From Vulgatibacter incomptus (GTDB lineage Bacteria; Myxococcota; Myxococcia; Myxococcales; Vulgatibacteraceae), in the NCBI RefSeq assembly GCF_001263175.1, contig NZ_CP012332.1, positions 3,349,501-3,413,500 on the forward strand: a stretch of DNA of 64,000 nucleotides, written 5' to 3'. The number at the start of each line of letters is the position of its first letter. Within the stretch, counting starts at the first letter, position 1. The translations under genes were made by a program, and so were the position numbers. Below, in pieces: positions 54,080-62,857 of the stretch. Below the pieces are notes generated by a model, which made no database searches, had not been told where the DNA came from, and saw nothing but the letters and a program-made list of their open reading frames with translations.

Positions 54080-54772
54080 TCAGTGGATCGTCCGACCTTC
54101 GCCTTCGGCGGCCGGCGCCTGCTCGGCGCCGACCTTCGTCGCCTCGGCCACCTTGCCCTCGAGCTGATCCCCGAGTTTGTCGAGCTGCTCCATCGCGCGC
54201 GCCCTGGCTGGCGCCATTGCTTGCCTCTCTCGCTCGGAGACGGGGAGCAGGAACGCTGCCGCCGCGCCAAGGGCGACCGCGCCCAAGAGGAGGCCCGCGA
54301 GCTGCTCCTCCGCCCGCTCCTGGAAGCGGGCCGAGAGCTCCTCGCCGGAAGGCATCTGAGCCCGCGCCCGGGTCATCCGCTCCCTCACCTGGCCGCGCCG
54401 CTGGGCCGCTCGCTCCTTCGCCCTGGTCAATCGCTGGGATGCGCGCTCCCGCGCCGCGGCGATGCGCTCCGACGCCGGTGCGCCCCCGAGCTGCGCCTCG
54501 TGCTCGGTGAGACCCTCCTCCTCCTTCCGGGCGCCCATCAGCCGGGCGGCCATCGCGCCGATCAACCCGCCCGCCGCAGCGCCCATCAGCCCGAGGGCCG
54601 TCGGGCTCTCCGAAGCGCGAAGCCTCATTCGATCCGCAGCATCCATCGCCATTCGCCTCGCCTCTCCGGAGACGTAGCCGGGGGTCGCTCTCCTCGAGAT
54701 CTCGTCCGCTATGTCGTTCAGGTTTCGCTGCGCGCGTGCGATCGCATCGAGTGCATCCTCTCGCTCGCCCAT
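54080..54772 (-). CDS. Membrane-anchored helical protein (DUF3618-like)
   Basis: 230 residues. It starts MGEREDALDAIARAQRNLND, a stretch typical of DUF3618-like small envelope proteins that tether to the membrane. There are two hydrophobic segments (ALGLMGAAAGGLIGAMAARL and LAGLLLGAVALGAAAAFLLP) among charged coiled-coil-like helices (RIAAARERASQRLTRAKERA). No enzymatic motif is seen. GGAGGAG precedes the ATG. It overlaps the upstream holin-like gene by 55 bases. It is third in a row of three similar small genes. Confidence 0.78.
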   Translation of the reverse strand: MGEREDALDAIARAQRNLNDIADEISRRATPGYVSGEARRMAMDAADRMRLRASESPTALGLMGAAAGGLIGAMAARLMGARKEEEGLTEHEAQLGGAPASERIAAARERASQRLTRAKERAAQRRGQVRERMTRARAQMPSGEELSARFQERAEEQLAGLLLGAVALGAAAAFLLPVSERERQAMAPARARAMEQLDKLGDQLEGKVAEATKVGAEQAPAAEGEGRTIH

Positions 54773-55563
54773 CTGCGCTCCTCCTCGATGACCCGCGCCG
54801 CGTCCTTGGGAACCGGCCGGACCTGCTTGAGCTTCACCACGCCGCCAAGTGCCGCGATTGCGCCGAGACAGAGGACGACGATCCCGATCAGGATGGCGGA
54901 GAGCCACAGCGGGATCACCAGAGCCAGGGCCACGATGCCTCCGGCGACCAGGGCGAGCACGCCCGCGAAGGCCAAGGCGGAACCCATGCCGACCGTCGCG
55001 CCTCCGGAAGCGGTGGACCTCACCTCGTCCCGGATCTCGGCCTTGGCGAGCCGCAGCTCCTCCCGAGCGAGCCGCTTCGAGTCCTCGAGGAAGAGCCTCA
55101 CGAGCTCCGGGGTCGACATCGCGTCGTAGCGCTTGCCGGCCGGGGCGCGCTCTCCCCCGGGCGGCGGCTCCCTCCGTCCCGGCTCGCCTCCAGGAGGCGC
55201 CCCCGGAACGCGGGTCCGGGCACGAATGCGCCGTGGGTGCACGACCCTTCCGGCCTCCACCCGCGGCGCCGCCCTGGGAGCTTCGCCGCCGCGCTCCAGC
55301 ACCTCGCTCTCGGCCTCGCCGTGCTTCCTGCGGGCTGCCGCCGCGCGGCGCCTCTCCTCATGCAGCTCGTCGAGGGCCGCGGTCGTCACCTCCCGGAGGT
55401 TTCCCTCCTCGAGGGTTACGCCCGCCCGCTCCGCCTCCTCGATCGTGTGGCGATCGGCGGCGCTCTTGTAGAAGCGCTCGTCGCGGGCGCCCTCGAGGTC
55501 GCGCCTGGCCGCCTTCTCCTCGAGCTCCCGCTTCTCACTCTCGGTGTATCCCTCGTGTTCCAT
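54718..55563 (-). CDS. Phage-holin-family/YqjE-like (DUF1469) membrane protein
   Basis: 281 residues. The N-terminal half is hydrophilic and Arg/Glu-rich. The C-terminal half is a DUF1469-type domain: LVRLFLEDSKRLAREELRLA, KAEIRDEVRSTASGGATVGM, then two membrane segments FAGVLALVAGGIVALALVIP and LSAILIGIVVLCLGAIAALG. In E. coli the related YqjE lies with YqjD in a membrane-stress operon. The long charged N-terminal extension is unusual. The 3' end overlaps the next gene by 55 bases. Confidence 0.82.
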   Translation of the reverse strand: MEHEGYTESEKRELEEKAARRDLEGARDERFYKSAADRHTIEEAERAGVTLEEGNLREVTTAALDELHEERRRAAAARRKHGEAESEVLERGGEAPRAAPRVEAGRVVHPRRIRARTRVPGAPPGGEPGRREPPPGGERAPAGKRYDAMSTPELVRLFLEDSKRLAREELRLAKAEIRDEVRSTASGGATVGMGSALAFAGVLALVAGGIVALALVIPLWLSAILIGIVVLCLGAIAALGGVVKLKQVRPVPKDAARVIEEERRWASERMHSMRSHARSET

Positions 55564-55569
55564 GGCTCG

Positions 55570-56079
55570 TCAGCTCCGCAGGAGTCTCACTCCGAGGAAC
55601 CCCAGCGCAAACGCACCGCCGAGGATCACGCCTGGATGCGCCTTCACGCTCTCGCTCAAGTCTTCGATGACCTCGGACGCGGAGCGCTTGCGCAGGATCC
55701 CGGCGGCGTTCCGGATCCCCTCCGCTGCGCCCGAGGCGATCCGCTGCTGGGACTCGTGGCCCCGTTTCCCGAGCACATCGGAGAAGTCGTCGAGGGAGGA
55801 AGCGAACTCCTCGAGGCCGGTGACGAACTCCCCCTTCCTCGCCTCCGCCACCGTCGCGATTCGCTTGCGAACGGGCCGGTGCGCCTCCTCCGCCTGCTCT
55901 CCCTCCTCGGTCCCCTTCGTCTCCCTGGCTTCCTCCGTTTCCTCCGCTTCGGATTCATAGGAGGCAGAGACGCGCTCTCCTTCCGAGAAGGACTCGGTCC
56001 GCATGTCGGATCGCTCGTATTCCTCGAGCCTCTCCAGCGGACCCCTGGGGCGGGATCCCTCGTTGCTCTTCTCGTCCAC
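55570..56079 (-). CDS. Membrane-anchored YqjD/ElaB-like protein (DUF883-like)
   Basis: 169 residues from the GTG at 56079, chosen because GAGGAGGAGG lies just before it. The N-terminal half is very acidic (EEARETKGTEEGEQAEEAHR). The second half has helices and ends with HPGVILGGAFALGFLGVRLL, the C-terminal membrane tail typical of YqjD/ElaB. Those proteins bind ribosomes to the membrane in stationary phase in E. coli; a similar role here is inference. It is first of three co-oriented envelope genes. Confidence 0.78.
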   Translation of the reverse strand: MDEKSNEGSRPRGPLERLEEYERSDMRTESFSEGERVSASYESEAEETEEARETKGTEEGEQAEEAHRPVRKRIATVAEARKGEFVTGLEEFASSLDDFSDVLGKRGHESQQRIASGAAEGIRNAAGILRKRSASEVIEDLSESVKAHPGVILGGAFALGFLGVRLLRS

Positions 56080-56223
56080 CTCGCACCTCCTCCTCGGGCC
56101 GGCGCTCCGCCGCGGGGCGTCCTTCACCCCAACGTAGGCAGCACCATGCGGGTAGTGAATGAACGTGGGCGGAGACGGTCGCCCTGCGGGCAGGCAACCG
56201 ACGTGAGACGAGTGTGCGCGCCT

Positions 56224-57042
56224 CTACTCGAGAGGCTGACAGTGCGGGCAGAAGACGCTCGAGCGCCCTCCCAGCACGATCTGCTGGAGCTCGTTGCCAC
56301 AGCGGGGGCAGGCCTCTCCCGCCCGCTGGTAGACCAGGAAGGGGTTCTCGCTCCCCGGCTCCTCGACGTATTTGATCTCGTCGCCACCCGTCCATTCGAG
56401 CGTGTGCTCGATCGCTTCGTCGATCGCGCGGACGAGGTCTTTCACCTCCGCGAGCGAGAGCGTCTTCGCCACGCGCGCCGGGTGGATCTGGGCGCGGAAG
56501 AGCGCCTCGGTCGCCTGCACGTTGCCGAGCCCGGCGATCACGGCCTGATCCATGATCGCGACCTTCACCGTGCGTGCGGTCCTCTGCAGCTTCTCGTGGA
56601 GCCGCTCCGGATCGAGGCCGTCCAGGAGCGGATCGGGGCCGAGCTTGCGGATCACCGGGAGCTTCAGGAGCTCGCTCGCCCGATGGATGGCGATCCGTCC
56701 AAAGAGGCGTTGGTCGTCGTAGACGACGAGGTCGTCTCCCTCGAGCGAGAGCGTCGCCCGCGCGTGGTCCGGAGGCGGATCGTCGGGGGAGCGCCGCAGC
56801 CACTTACCGGTCATGCCCAGGTGGCTGAGCATGCCCACGTCGTCGTCGAAGGAGAGGAGCAGGTACTTGCCCCTCCGATCGATCCCCTGGAGCGTGCGCC
56901 CGCTCAGCTCCTTCTCGAAGGCGTCACGGCTCGAGCCCCGGAAGATCCGGGTGTCCGGCGCGGAGGCGCGCTCGATGGTGCGGCCCTCCATCCAGCGGCG
57001 AAGACACCGGGCGGCGAACTCGACTTCCGGCAGCTCGGGCAT
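56224..57042 (-). CDS. mutM: Formamidopyrimidine-DNA glycosylase (Fpg)
   Basis: 272 residues. It starts with the catalytic N-terminal MPELPEVE (Pro1 nucleophile, Glu2). It has LSHLGMTGKWLRR, GNVQATEALFRAQIHPARVA and a C-terminal zinc finger CPRCGNELQ ... CPHCQ. It removes oxidised purines such as 8-oxoguanine from DNA. Four Cys in the finger are intact. The 5' leader holds a 17-base near-perfect hairpin (57082-57118) and a 30-base element also found upstream of the ALDH fusion gene. Confidence 0.96.
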   Translation of the reverse strand: MPELPEVEFAARCLRRWMEGRTIERASAPDTRIFRGSSRDAFEKELSGRTLQGIDRRGKYLLLSFDDDVGMLSHLGMTGKWLRRSPDDPPPDHARATLSLEGDDLVVYDDQRLFGRIAIHRASELLKLPVIRKLGPDPLLDGLDPERLHEKLQRTARTVKVAIMDQAVIAGLGNVQATEALFRAQIHPARVAKTLSLAEVKDLVRAIDEAIEHTLEWTGGDEIKYVEEPGSENPFLVYQRAGEACPRCGNELQQIVLGGRSSVFCPHCQPLE

Positions 57043-57081
57043 CGTCCCCTCGCAGTCCCGACAATCCGGGCCGGAGCGTGT

Positions 57082-57118
57082 GAAGAACTCGGTCCCGCCA
57101 CGCGGGCCCGGGTTCTTC
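57082..57118. repeat. Strong hairpin ahead of mutM
   Basis: Arms of 17 bases (GAAGAACTCGGTCCCGC and its near complement) with a three-base loop; 15 of 17 pair perfectly, one more is G-T. It has no T run, so it is not a standard terminator for either strand. It is a candidate RNA-structure or REP-like element 40 bases before the mutM start. Confidence 0.65.
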
Positions 57119-57130
57119 AGCTCGCGCTTC

Positions 57131-57160
57131 GCGCGAGAGCGCTCCTTTTCGTTTGCTCCG
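57131..57160 (-). repeat. 30-base element, copy 1 (upstream of mutM)
   Basis: Matches 61471-61500 at 28 of 30 positions. On the minus strand its core is AAAAGGAGCGCTCTCGCGC. It begins 89 bases before the mutM start, almost the same distance as copy 2 from its gene. Confidence 0.6.
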
Positions 57161-57176
57161 CCTTCGGCTCCGCGAG

Positions 57177-57199
57177 AGTTCGTGAGTTCCTCACGAACT
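57177..57199 (-). terminator. Hairpin directly after the HIT gene
   Basis: Perfect ten-base stem AGTTCGTGAG / CTCACGAACT with a three-base loop, two bases past the HIT stop. No T run follows, so termination activity is uncertain. Confidence 0.5.
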
Positions 57200-57200
57200 G

Positions 57201-57623
57201 TCAGTCCGAGACCTGCTTGTAGCCGAGGCTTCGCAGCGTCGACCGCAAGCGCTCGGCGGCGGCGTCGAGATCGGCGGGGTTCGGGTTCCGGTCCTGGTTG
57301 GCGAAGTTCATGTCCTGGAGGGTGCGGATCGGCACCAGGTGCAGGTGCACGTGGGGCACCTCCAGGCCGGCGATCATCATCCCGACCTTCACCGGCTGGA
57401 AGGCCTGCTGGATCCCCTTCCCGACCGCCTGGGCCACCTCGGTGAGGTGCGTGGCCAGGTCCTGCGGCAGGTCGATCCAGTGATCGATCTCGTCGCGGGG
57501 CACCACCAGCGTGTGGCCTGGAGCGAGCGGCGCGATGGTGAGGAAGGCCACGCAGCGATCGTCCTTCCAGACGAACCGGCCAGGGAGCTCGCCGCGGATG
57601 ATGCGGGTGAAGAGGGACGCCAT
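57201..57623 (-). CDS. HIT-family nucleotide hydrolase
   Basis: 140 residues. The histidine triad is VPHVHLHLVPIRT. The N-terminus is MASLFTRIIRGELPGRFVWK and FLTIAPLAPGHTLVVPRDEI. HIT proteins hydrolyse adenosine or dinucleoside phosphates such as AMP-lysine or Ap4A; the exact substrate is unknown. A hairpin lies directly after the stop. The M20 peptidase gene lies 90 bases upstream on the same strand. Confidence 0.94.
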   Translation of the reverse strand: MASLFTRIIRGELPGRFVWKDDRCVAFLTIAPLAPGHTLVVPRDEIDHWIDLPQDLATHLTEVAQAVGKGIQQAFQPVKVGMMIAGLEVPHVHLHLVPIRTLQDMNFANQDRNPNPADLDAAAERLRSTLRSLGYKQVSD

Positions 57624-57712
57624 CTCGTGGACCTCGTCGGTAGACGCCCGGCGGACGGCCGGGCGAATTTTCGAGCGATGGTAGAGCGGCGGCGCCGATG
57701 CCGGAAGCCAAA

Positions 57713-59059
57713 TCACGCCGTGCAGAAGCGGGTCACCGCGTCGTGCAGGAGGCGCATGCCGAAGCCGAATCCGTCCACCGGGATCCGCTCGTTTTTGTCG
57801 TGGAAGAGCTCCGCAAAAGGGAGCCCCGGCGGGAGGCCCACGGGAGCGAAGCCGTACCACTTGGTCCCGAGGCGGGAGAACGCGAGGGCGTCGGTGAAGC
57901 CGGGGACCATGTAGGGCACGGGGATTCCCGCGGGATCCGCACGCCGGATCGCCGCGGCGAGGGCTTCGAATAGCGGCGTCCGAGGCGAGACCTCCAGCGC
58001 GTCGAGGACGCGGACGACCTCGAGCTCCACGTCCTCGCCCACCACCGCACGAAGCTCGTCCAGGAGCCTGGCTCCCGCAGCACCCGGGAGCGTGCGCCCA
58101 TCGAGGCCCGCCTCCGCCCTGTCGGGGATCACGTTCAGCTTGTCCCCTGCACGGAGCATGGTCGGCGCCACCGTGTTCGAGAGCACCGCCCGCAGGGATC
58201 TCGCCAGCGCCCTGTCGGGCAACGCGCGGAGGATCCATGGAGCGAGGCGGGGATTGAGCAGCGCCCGGAGCGCGAGCCCCTTGGGCGGGCCGACGGCCTG
58301 CGCCGCGGTCTCCAGGAAGCCGCGGGTCGCGTCGGTGGCATGGATCCGGAGCGGCCGCCTCTCGAGGCGGGCGATGGCGGCGGAGAGCTTCCCGACCGCG
58401 CTCTTCTCGCGAGGCATCGAGCCGTGGCCGCCCTCGCCCCTGGCGGTCGCCTTGATCCAGAGCACGCCCTTTTGCGCCACCTGGATCGGGTAGAAGCGGC
58501 GGCCCTCCAGGTGGAGGGTGAAACCGCCGATCTCACCCAGCGCATACTCTGATCTCACAAGCTCCGGGTGGTGATCCACGAGCCAGGCCGAGCCCAGGTC
58601 GCAGCCCGCCTCCTCGTCCGCCACCAGCGCGAGGATCACGTCCCGCTTCAGCTTCGCGCCGGTGCGAGCGAGGGAGCGGAGCAGGGTCACGCACATGGCC
58701 GCGTGGTGCTTCATGTCGATGGCGCCGCGGCCCCACACGAAGCCGTCGCGGATCTCGCCGGCGAAGGGCGGGTGCGTCCAGCCTTCACCGGCGGGGACCA
58801 CGTCGAGGTGGGCGGTGAGCAGGAGCGGCGGGGCCTCGCCCGAGCCCTTCCAGCGGCAGACGAGGTTGGTGCGATCCCTCGCGCCCTCGAGGAGCACGGG
58901 CTCGAGCCCATCCTTCCGCAGCAGCTCGGCGCACGCTTCGGCGGCGGGACGCTCGTTCCCCGGCGGGTTCGTGGTGTCGATCCGAAGGAGCGTGACGAGG
59001 AGGCGCAGCGCCTCGTCCACCCACTCTTCGGCGAGGTCCCCGTAGGTCGTCTCGTGCAC
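57713..59059 (-). CDS. M20-family metallopeptidase (ArgE/DapE/ACY1-like)
   Basis: 448 residues from the GTG at 59059, preferred because GGGAGGGGG lies ahead and homologous sequence starts soon after (LVTLLRIDTTNPPGNERPAA). Metal and catalytic motifs: LLLTAHLDVVPAGEGW, GRGAIDMKHHAAMC, ALVADEEAGCDLGS and a late ELFHDKNERI. It hydrolyses N-acyl amino acids or short peptides; the substrate is unknown. The dimerisation domain carries EGGHGSMP. It is followed 90 bases later by the HIT gene. Confidence 0.93.
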   Translation of the reverse strand: MHETTYGDLAEEWVDEALRLLVTLLRIDTTNPPGNERPAAEACAELLRKDGLEPVLLEGARDRTNLVCRWKGSGEAPPLLLTAHLDVVPAGEGWTHPPFAGEIRDGFVWGRGAIDMKHHAAMCVTLLRSLARTGAKLKRDVILALVADEEAGCDLGSAWLVDHHPELVRSEYALGEIGGFTLHLEGRRFYPIQVAQKGVLWIKATARGEGGHGSMPREKSAVGKLSAAIARLERRPLRIHATDATRGFLETAAQAVGPPKGLALRALLNPRLAPWILRALPDRALARSLRAVLSNTVAPTMLRAGDKLNVIPDRAEAGLDGRTLPGAAGARLLDELRAVVGEDVELEVVRVLDALEVSPRTPLFEALAAAIRRADPAGIPVPYMVPGFTDALAFSRLGTKWYGFAPVGLPPGLPFAELFHDKNERIPVDGFGFGMRLLHDAVTRFCTA

Positions 59060-59085
59060 CGCTTCCCCCTCCCGCGCCTGCGGTC

Positions 59086-61380
59086 CTACTGCGGCGCGCC
59101 GCGCTTCCCTTCCGACTGCGGGGCAGACGCTCCGGACCTCACGACCTTGCCGCGGGCGAGGAAGCCCGCGACGACCTCGCCCAGCGCCGCGAGGCGGCCG
59201 CCGGCACCCGACCTCAGCTGCGTGAGGCCGCGCGCGAGGCGGAGCACCGAGGCGTCGTACGGGTACCACCACAGCTCCCGCTTGGCGCGGCTGCGGTCGA
59301 CCAGGACGAACCTGGGCCGGGTGAGCTCGTCGAGCATGTGCGGGCTGTTGGTCACGCCGAAGCCGCTGCCCCGCACGCCTCCCCAGGGCGCCTGCGCGAG
59401 GCCGCCCGTGAAGGCGTGGTTGTTCACGGTGATCACCCCGGCGTGGATCCGCCTGCCGAGGCGCTCGGCGCGATCCGTGTCCTTGGACCAGACGCTCACG
59501 GTGAGACCGTAGGCAGAGGCGTTCGCTCGCTTTACCGCGTCCTCCTCGTCCCTCACCCGGACCACGGGGAGCACGGGACCGAAGGTCTCCTGCGCCACGA
59601 GCGCGAGGTCGTCGGGAGGCCCGAGCACTAGAGTCGGAGCCAGGTGGAGTCCCTTCTCGCCGCTCTCGCCTCCCGCGACGGAGACGCTCCGACGGCGGGC
59701 CTCGTCGAGCTGCGCGTCGACGATCGCCTTCTGGGCGGGCGTGGTGAGGGGGCCGATCTCCACGCTTCCCTCGGGGCCCGGCCCCACGCGGAGCGCCGCG
59801 ACCTTCTCGCGAAGGAGCACCTCGAAGCGATCGGCCACCGACTCCACGACATAGCAGCGCTCGATCGCCGCACAGTTCTGTCCCGCGTTCGCGAACGCGC
59901 CCCAGACCACGCCGTTGGCGGTCCTCTCGAGGTCCGCGTCCGCGAGGACGATCGCCGCGTCCTTACCCCCGAGCTCCAGGGTCACGGAGGTGAGCTTCTC
60001 GGCGCAGGCCCGCGCCACCGCGCGACCCGTGCGAGGCGAGCCGATGAACACCAGGTGGTCCACGCCAGCGCCCACGAGGGCGCTCCCCTGCTCGCCGCCG
60101 CCCTGGACCAGGGCGAAGAGGCCGGGGGGCAGGATCCCGTCGAAGATCCTCGCCAGGAACGCGCCGCTGCGGGCTGCGTGCTCCGACGGCTTGAGGATCA
60201 CCGCGTTCCCCGCGAGGAGCGCGGGCACCACCGTGCGGAGCGGGAGCATCAGCGGGAAGTTCCACGGGCTGATCGCCGCCACCACGCCGCGGGGCAGGTG
60301 CTCGACCACGCCGCTCTTTCCGGGGAAGAGCACCGGGTTCACCGGCACGCCATCCGCCTGGAGGAGCAGCGGTCCCTTCGAACACCAGTAGTCAAACAGA
60401 TCGGCACACGGGACGATCTCGGAGAGGTAGCTCTCCGCGCGGGGCCTGCCGTTCTCCTCCTCGAGGATCGCGGCGGCCTCCTCGGCCCTCTCGAGGAGAC
60501 GCTTGCCCGCCTTGCGGAGCAGCGCCGCCCGCTCCTTCACGGGCCGCAGCGCCCACTCGTGCTGGGCATCTCTCGCCCGGGAGACGATCCCCGCGAGCTC
60601 GCCCGCTGGAGTGATCGCGAGGGGCTCGAGGGGCGCGCCGTCGATCGGCCGCACCCCGCGGATGAAGCCGCCCTCGATCACCGGGGTCGACGCGGCCCCG
60701 GGCTCCGAGCCCACGCTCCGCCACTCGACCTTGGAGGGATCCGGCTGCACGCAGGAGGCGAGCTTGGCGCGCTTTCCCTTCACGAGGATCCACGCCAGGC
60801 AACCGAGGCCCACGATCGCCTGGATCGGGCCTACGACGTTCAGCGCGGTCTGGAACGGCGCCACATCCTTCACCGGAGGTGCGAGGCCCGCGTGATAGGT
60901 CTCGTAGGTCCCTACGTGGAAGTACTGGTCCCAGGTGACGAGCCAGATCAGGATCCAGGCGCCCAGGCCGAGGACGACGTTGGCGATCGCCCAGCCCATC
61001 TTCCCCGTGCGGACGAGGTGGAGGGAGACGGCGGCGCCGGCAGCTCCAGCAGCGACTACCGAAACGAAGAAGACCGGCGAAACCCAGACCAGTGAGAGCT
61101 GCGACTCGGGCAGGAGGTAGGCGTACATCCACGCCGGCCAGCTGAAGAGGAAGTACTGCACGGAGATCGCGAAGACGACGACGAAGAGCATCGCCACGCG
61201 AAAGGCCGCACGGCCCCGCCCCGCGCGCACCAGCTTCGTCCCGAGGAGGACGAAGAGCGCGGCGAGGCCATATGCGGTGGGTGGGTCGAGCGGGACGGTC
61301 GGCGCAGCTCCTGGGGCGGTGGGCAAGGTGGCGGCCGGCCGCCTCGGGGGAGCCGAGCCCCCGAAGCTTGATCCGAGCAC
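59086..61380 (-). CDS. Aldehyde dehydrogenase fused to an N-terminal membrane domain
   Basis: About 764 residues if translation starts at the GTG at 61380 (start uncertain; no clear ribosome site). Residues about 25-215 hold five membrane segments, e.g. TAYGLAALFVLLGTKLV, VVFAISVQYFLFSWPAWMYA, FFVSVVAAGAAGAAVSLHLV and VVLGLGAWILIWLVTWDQYF. The rest is a full ALDH: SPWNFPLMLPLR, VTLELGGKDAAIVL (general-base Glu), NAGQNCAAIERCYV (nucleophile Cys) and QETFGPVLPVVRV. The active site is complete. ALDHs normally lack such a domain, so the enzyme is presumably tethered to the inner membrane. The 3' end lies 27 bases before the M20 start. Confidence 0.85.
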   Translation of the reverse strand: MLGSSFGGSAPPRRPAATLPTAPGAAPTVPLDPPTAYGLAALFVLLGTKLVRAGRGRAAFRVAMLFVVVFAISVQYFLFSWPAWMYAYLLPESQLSLVWVSPVFFVSVVAAGAAGAAVSLHLVRTGKMGWAIANVVLGLGAWILIWLVTWDQYFHVGTYETYHAGLAPPVKDVAPFQTALNVVGPIQAIVGLGCLAWILVKGKRAKLASCVQPDPSKVEWRSVGSEPGAASTPVIEGGFIRGVRPIDGAPLEPLAITPAGELAGIVSRARDAQHEWALRPVKERAALLRKAGKRLLERAEEAAAILEEENGRPRAESYLSEIVPCADLFDYWCSKGPLLLQADGVPVNPVLFPGKSGVVEHLPRGVVAAISPWNFPLMLPLRTVVPALLAGNAVILKPSEHAARSGAFLARIFDGILPPGLFALVQGGGEQGSALVGAGVDHLVFIGSPRTGRAVARACAEKLTSVTLELGGKDAAIVLADADLERTANGVVWGAFANAGQNCAAIERCYVVESVADRFEVLLREKVAALRVGPGPEGSVEIGPLTTPAQKAIVDAQLDEARRRSVSVAGGESGEKGLHLAPTLVLGPPDDLALVAQETFGPVLPVVRVRDEEDAVKRANASAYGLTVSVWSKDTDRAERLGRRIHAGVITVNNHAFTGGLAQAPWGGVRGSGFGVTNSPHMLDELTRPRFVLVDRSRAKRELWWYPYDASVLRLARGLTQLRSGAGGRLAALGEVVAGFLARGKVVRSGASAPQSEGKRGAPQ

Positions 61381-61555: not shown

Positions 61556-62857
61556 TCAGGCCTCGAAGAAGCGCGCAAGGACCGCCGCCATTCGCTCCGG
61601 ATCCTCGGCGCCCCCCTGCTCGCGGATCGAGTGCATGGAGAGCATCGGATTCCCGACGTCGATGGTGCGGATGCCGAGCCGCGCGGACGAGATCGGCCCG
61701 ATCGTGCTCCCGCAGGCGAGATCGGTGCGGCTCACGAACTTCTGGAAAGGGACGTTCGCGTCCCTGCAGAGGAGCTCGAAGAAGGCCTCGCCCTCCGCGT
61801 CCGTAGCGTAGCGCTGCTGGGCGTTCACCTTGATCACCGGGCCGCCGTTCAGCCGGGGCTGGTGGTGGGGCTCGTGCTTGTCGGTGAAGTTCGGGTGGAG
61901 CGCGTGGGCCATGTCGGCGGAGATCTGCCAGGAGCGCGCGGAGGCCCGATGCAGCGCCTCGGCGCCACCTGCCGCGATCCGGGTGAGCACGTCCTCGACC
62001 AGCGAGCCGCCCGCGCCAGAGGTCGAGCCGCTCCCCACCTCCTCGTGATCATAGAGGCAGGCGATCTGGGTGGACTGCGCCGCCGGCGCGCGGAGGAGCG
62101 CGGTCAGGGCGGCGTGGCAGGACGCCTGATTGTCGAGGCGGGGCGAGAAGATGAACTCACCGCGCAGACCGCCGACCGCGGGCGGCTGCACGTCCATCAG
62201 CGAGAGATCCCACGAGAGGATCCGCTCCTCCTCGACCTCGAGCTCGGCGGCGAGGACTGCGCGGAGGTTCTTCGGAAGCGAGTCGTCCGTCAGCGCCAGC
62301 ACCGGCGGGAGGTGGAGCTGGTTGTTCAGGATGAGGCCCTTCTTCGTGACCTCGCGGTCGAGGTGGATCGCGAGGGAGGCCACCCGTGCCATCGGACGCG
62401 CCATGGTCACCAGGCGCCGCTCCAGGCCGCCGGGCTCGTCGCCGCGGAGCACCACCTTGCCGGCCAGGCCGAGGTCGCGGTCGAGCCAGGTGTGCGTGAG
62501 CACGCCGCCGTAGACCTCCACGCCGAGCTGGCGGTAGCCGTCCTTGGTGAAGTCCGCGTTCGGCTTCACCCTGAGGTTGGGCGAGTCCGTGTGCGCGCCG
62601 ACGAGGCGAAAGCCCGCGTCCGCCGCAGCGCCCATTCCCACCCGGAAGAGGACGATGGCTCCGCTGCGGGCCACCATGTAGCCGCGGCCGGGCTCGAGAT
62701 CCCAGGCGTCGCCTTCTTCCACGCGCAGGAATCCCGCCGCGGCGGCGCGGCGCTCGACCTCCGCCACGCAGTGGTACGGCGTCGGGCTGGCCTCGATGAA
62801 CGCGAGGAGGTCTGCCGTGGTCGAGTGGATCGAGGGAGGCGAGGAGGGCTTGCGCAA
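61556..62857 (-). CDS. apeB: M18 aspartyl aminopeptidase
   Basis: 433 residues, starting at the TTG at 62857, since no ATG or GTG lies between it and the conserved part TTADLLAFIEASPTPYHCVA. Metal ligands are in GAHTDSPNLRVKP, SPRLDNQASCHA, LYDHEEVGSGST and LSMHSIREQGG. It removes N-terminal acidic residues from peptides and is usually a large tetrahedral cytoplasmic enzyme. GGAGC lies upstream of the TTG. It is separated from apaG by 162 bases. Confidence 0.93.
   Translation of the reverse strand: MRKPSSPPSIHSTTADLLAFIEASPTPYHCVAEVERRAAAAGFLRVEEGDAWDLEPGRGYMVARSGAIVLFRVGMGAAADAGFRLVGAHTDSPNLRVKPNADFTKDGYRQLGVEVYGGVLTHTWLDRDLGLAGKVVLRGDEPGGLERRLVTMARPMARVASLAIHLDREVTKKGLILNNQLHLPPVLALTDDSLPKNLRAVLAAELEVEEERILSWDLSLMDVQPPAVGGLRGEFIFSPRLDNQASCHAALTALLRAPAAQSTQIACLYDHEEVGSGSTSGAGGSLVEDVLTRIAAGGAEALHRASARSWQISADMAHALHPNFTDKHEPHHQPRLNGGPVIKVNAQQRYATDAEGEAFFELLCRDANVPFQKFVSRTDLACGSTIGPISSARLGIRTIDVGNPMLSMHSIREQGGAEDPERMAAVLARFFEA

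Follow-up and report, generated by a model that had tools for sequence, protein, structure and literature searches.

Aldehyde dehydrogenases (ALDHs) are usually soluble or are held by a single membrane anchor. The window analysed here, a stretch of 64,000 nucleotides from the soil myxobacterium Vulgatibacter incomptus, contained one minus-strand frame in which a complete ALDH was preceded by five membrane helices, which raised the question of whether the two parts form one protein and what a membrane domain of this size contributes to the enzyme. The source genome was a single contig of 4,350,553 bases, and the literature places the V. incomptus genome below 5 Mb (PMC12093494).

The frame showed no stop codon from position 61578 down to the stop at 59086-59088. 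The start codon was uncertain, with GTG at 61380, TTG at 61326 and TTG at 61578 as candidates; translation from GTG 61380 gave a gene at 59086..61380 and a product of 764 residues. The product contained a five-helix membrane domain of about 190 residues (60751..61299), a disordered linker some 20 residues long (60688..60750), a complete ALDH domain (59308..60654), and a C-terminal tail (59089..59277) beginning with ELWWYPY and carrying two predicted helices, all on the minus strand. The tail lies beyond the ALDH core, was kept in fused and adjacent forms, and is part of the conserved protein. The AlphaFold2 model gave the same order: five long helices (61243-61287, 61141-61215, 61009-61092, 60937-60999 and 60751-60861, minus strand), a linker of low confidence (pLDDT <50) and an ALDH fold. 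A sequence-only reading had described a single frame with five membrane segments followed by a full ALDH; this was borne out by Pfam, by AlphaFold2 and by the presence of the catalytic residues, and the junction it had named at about 60740-60760 corresponded to the low-confidence linker. Upstream of the fusion gene lay an M18 aminopeptidase gene (61556..62857, minus strand), which among the fused loci was found elsewhere only in the closest relative, G001. The next gene downstream, 26 bases past the fusion, encoded an M20 metallo-hydrolase (57713..59059, minus strand) that scored over the cut-off of the PRK07906 subfamily.

The ALDH and the five-helix domain are a genuine single protein of mildly unusual build, since a handful of related genera carry the same fusion. 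When the membrane part alone was used as a query against 60 relatives, matches were obtained in frames of 794, 748 and 734 codons (G001, G014 and G009, respectively), each holding the same ALDH in the same domain order; homologs of this kind, proposed as a check in the sequence-only reading, were thus present in three further assemblies, with identities of 44-57%. The fusion was found in a total of four genomes of two families, and the four proteins aligned end to end with 44-61% identity to the first row. Two of the fused-form genomes were metagenome bins (YF1.bin66 and BP4.bin7), and a fifth candidate (G019) was cut by a contig end. For the closest pair, pN/pS was 0.60 in the membrane domain, 0.55 in the ALDH and a near-neutral 0.92 in the linker, while a second comparison gave 0.56 for the membrane domain and 0.62 for the ALDH, these ratios being comparable only among themselves because synonymous sites were near saturation. 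The membrane domain and the ALDH are both under purifying selection and the linker is not. An artefact in which a missed stop or a frame error merged two genes would agree with the unfused, directly adjacent genes of one relative (G163), but separate assemblies of four genomes, one of which is a single contig, had the same continuous frame, and both parts were under selection in one frame; a sequencing error or missed stop was therefore ruled out as extremely improbable. A search of contigs with very conserved peptides returned only two f9 genomes, both already known, and a search of plasmids produced no match. A 676-codon frame in G093, at first sight a fusion of the domain to another partner, looked like a shadow frame of the GH1 gene and was set aside.

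The ALDH part matched the Pfam family Aldedh (PF00171) with 402.6 bits (cut-off 23; E 2.5e-120), the only Pfam domain in the protein. The active-site Cys within NAGQNC (59872..59874), the general base Glu (59974-59976) and the catalytic oxyanion Asn (60259-60261), all on the minus strand, were kept in all fused and adjacent forms; NAD(P)+-dependent aldehyde oxidation is the predicted activity. The modelled core matched many ALDHs of solved structure, with a TM-score of about 0.9 by target length. Among curated families, the succinic semialdehyde dehydrogenase (SSADH) GabD2 (NCBIfam PRK09407) scored highest for this part and is the nearest named group, but the score of 352 bits was under the cut-off of 521. 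Glu515 and Ser498 (human numbering) are conserved in all SSADHs (PMC11681614). The window ALDH shared Arg213 with GabD2, while Ser498 and Glu515 were replaced by Thr and Arg334 by Ala, and it bears the extra membrane domain. Membership of the succinic semialdehyde dehydrogenases was rejected on the score and on the two conserved residues, Ser498 and Glu515.

A membrane-held ALDH of another type is fatty aldehyde dehydrogenase (FALDH, ALDH3A2), whose membrane helix and gatekeeper helix, the latter at the C-terminus, serve membrane-derived long-chain aldehydes (PMC8160307). Like FALDH, the window protein would be an NAD(P)-dependent, membrane-held ALDH, and in each the core is followed by a helical C-terminal tail. 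FALDH, however, has one C-terminal membrane helix, whereas the window protein has five N-terminal helices and soluble C-terminal ones, and its core scored best with GabD2/betaine-type models. The best sequence and fold matches listed for the core were not of ALDH3 types. The resemblance is a functional analogy only.

No Pfam or NCBIfam match was obtained for the N-terminal 190 residues. A profile built from eight sequences detected the membrane family in 31 of 195 Myxococcota genomes, nearly always as proteins of about 190-200 residues and usually separate from other domains. A profile search and common motifs identify these standalone five-helix proteins (alignment A4) as the same domain; they differ in being unfused and in adjoining mostly GH1 glycosidase genes and in some cases GMC oxidoreductase genes. 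Across 33 members, no Pfam or NCBIfam family matched more than two, and all matches were weak; those to Cyt_bd_oxida_II (2 members) and MFS (1 member) were isolated and were taken as effects of composition. AlphaFold2, supplied with 33 sequences, modelled the domain confidently (pLDDT 94.7) as a compact bundle of five long helices. Foldseek found no counterpart of it among the viral models or in the PDB, where the best probability was 0.14. A known transporter or oxidase fold was rejected, as no match was produced by Pfam, NCBIfam, PDB sequences or Foldseek.

Conserved motifs in the domain were D-P-P, W-M-x-x-Y and Y-x-x-x-G. W63 and Y67 were invariant in all 33 sequences, and G136, G144 and D11 were nearly so. 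Lys and Arg residues in the loops numbered 3.35, 2.27 and 3.23 per sequence on one side versus 0.00, 0.83 and 2.58 on the other, the positive charges gathering in the loops that join helices 1-2 and helices 3-4 and in the segment following helix 5. This distribution, read with the charge rule and the model, predicts an outer N-terminus and an inner C-terminus, and the ALDH would consequently lie in the cytoplasm. With that topology, the most conserved residues would fall on the predicted periplasmic face, opposite the ALDH.

Standalone forms of the membrane protein most often had a GH1 glycosidase as neighbour. In family f4 the membrane protein gene usually stood directly downstream of the GH1 gene, an order seen in loci L022, L057, L059, L061, L062, L063, L065 and L067, and in several f4 genomes a 390-residue protein with no Pfam match followed the membrane protein (L057:7502-8677). 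A GMC oxidoreductase adjoined the membrane protein in three genomes (G035, G047 and G159); it lay about 4 kb away in G158, and a GMC-like neighbour in G072 was doubtful. Both kinds of neighbourhood were united in one locus (L058:7217-11639), where GH1, GMC oxidoreductase and membrane protein formed a tight row. In two other loci (L021:8466-11025 and L023:890-3453) the membrane protein shared a gene row with a Gluconate_2-dh3-like protein and a GMC oxidoreductase that has a Cys-rich stretch, an arrangement that looks like a membrane-bound alcohol dehydrogenase. Distant family members adjoined acyl-CoA synthetase (AMP-binding) and thiolase genes, and one adjoined a lipoprotein diacylglyceryl transferase gene. 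In two families the distant branch followed thiolase-like and AMP-binding genes (L074:3268-7500 and L075:6787-10872), while in L071:6544-9047 the neighbour of a distant member showed a marginal GMC_oxred_C match (E 0.006), no PDB match, and is possibly a divergent flavoenzyme.

Separate-gene homologs, which the sequence-only reading had named as grounds for doubting the fusion, do exist; they did not refute it, and show a possible route to fusion and not an error. With genes in related loci called by a simple script, which leaves gene starts there approximate, the membrane-protein gene of G163, a genome of another order of the same class, ended in TAG and the ATG of the ALDH gene followed with zero bases between. 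The G163 ALDH was 51% identical to the window ALDH, both had the ELWWYPY tail, and an enoyl-CoA hydratase gene lay upstream. G008 and G069 contained an ALDH alone followed by the M20 hydrolase gene as in the window. These standalone ALDHs were about 46% identical to the window ALDH, with a similar tail, and 50-51% identical to that of G163; they differ in that the protein has no membrane domain and none was detected beside it. The ALDH-M20 order was kept in the window and in four other genomes (G008, G069, G009 and G014). In three genomes (L109:5275-10781, L019 and L020) the ALDH and M20 genes had a TPR protein gene on their upstream side; a thiolase preceded the TPR protein in two of these rows, and an alpha/beta hydrolase stood in between in G008. 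The simplest history is that an ALDH-M20 pair gained the membrane gene upstream and that fusion came afterwards. A single origin of the fusion was neither supported nor rejected by the membrane-domain tree (AU p = 0.24), and in the ALDH tree the unfused protein of G008 grouped with the fused ones (support 82/89).

For the function of the fused protein, the explanation given here is an inner-membrane-tethered ALDH that oxidises a lipophilic aldehyde, to which we assign about an even chance; topology, catalysis, the lipophilic substrate and any active part played by the membrane domain are inferred. A formerly independent small membrane protein and an independent M20-paired ALDH would have had their genes joined in two myxococcal families, and the five-helix domain and flexible linker would hold the enzyme on the cytoplasmic face. 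The ALDH would there oxidise, with NAD(P)+, a lipophilic aldehyde formed within the membrane or at its surface, where tethering would raise the local enzyme concentration. The recurrent fusion, the directly adjacent unfused genes of G163, the shared ALDH-M20 order, the catalytic residues, the loop charges, the lipid/aldehyde-type neighbours and the FALDH analogy are consistent with this; GMC, enoyl-CoA hydratase, acyl-CoA synthetase and thiolase genes fit lipid or alcohol/aldehyde chemistry, though the neighbourhoods are mixed. The commonest neighbour being a GH1 glycosidase argues against it, as do the position of the conserved residues away from the ALDH and the water-soluble substrate of the nearest named group, GabD2, though the protein scores far under the GabD2 cut-off. 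With GH1 as the commonest partner, the role of the domain may be wider and need not concern aldehydes. The sequence-only reading had proposed more specifically that the membrane domain could supply the ALDH with a membrane-derived aldehyde; such direct hand-over is only one possibility, because the conserved residues face away from the enzyme and most standalone relatives adjoin a glycosidase and not an ALDH. Plasmalogen breakdown as the aldehyde source was unsupported, because the CarF-type plasmalogen desaturase (PF10520) was absent from every fusion genome (G000, G001, G009 and G014); it was present in other Myxococcota.

The domain may instead work in its own right at the periplasmic face, where it would transport, sense or bind a ligand or partner, with ALDH, GH1 and GMC enzymes as several cytoplasmic partners acting on the compound brought in or exposed. 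This is possible though somewhat doubtful. It would account for a domain that is mostly standalone, has varied partners across the 31 of 195 genomes that encode it, folds as a compact, confidently modelled bundle, is under purifying selection equal to that on the ALDH, and has its three motifs clustered opposite the ALDH. Many transporters, however, would be expected to have a conserved charge or metal ligand inside the membrane, and here none was seen; the sole near-invariant charge, D11, sits at the membrane edge, and the best Foldseek probability gave no transporter fold. It is rather unlikely that the domain is a mere anchor and that the ALDH serves as an ordinary semialdehyde dehydrogenase in the breakdown of amino acids or polyamines, functionally tied to the downstream M20 hydrolase. 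The ALDH-M20 pairing kept without a membrane domain in G008 and G069, the semialdehyde dehydrogenases as top NCBIfam models and the retained Arg213 of human SSADH agree with that proposal, but the substitutions at Glu515, Ser498 and Arg334 and scores far under the equivalog cut-offs do not, and a pure anchor needs no strongly conserved periplasmic motifs. A bolder proposal, quite unlikely on present evidence, is that with this domain a new family of small membrane modules is recognised for the first time. Such modules would bind or admit a lipophilic substrate from the periplasmic side and pass it to a cytoplasmic enzyme, whether glycosidase, GMC oxidoreductase or ALDH; in the fusion, module and enzyme would have become one protein.

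What sets this locus apart is an ALDH bearing a polytopic membrane domain, as against a soluble form or a single anchor. Through the fusion, a membrane-protein family that otherwise has no name but is widespread in Myxococcota is connected with a defined enzyme, and since the activity of that enzyme is easily read out as NAD(P)H, the function of the family becomes testable. On the plus strand, 54083-61095 contained several long frames (348-828 codons) overlapping the minus-strand genes, which were taken as shadow frames of GC-rich DNA.
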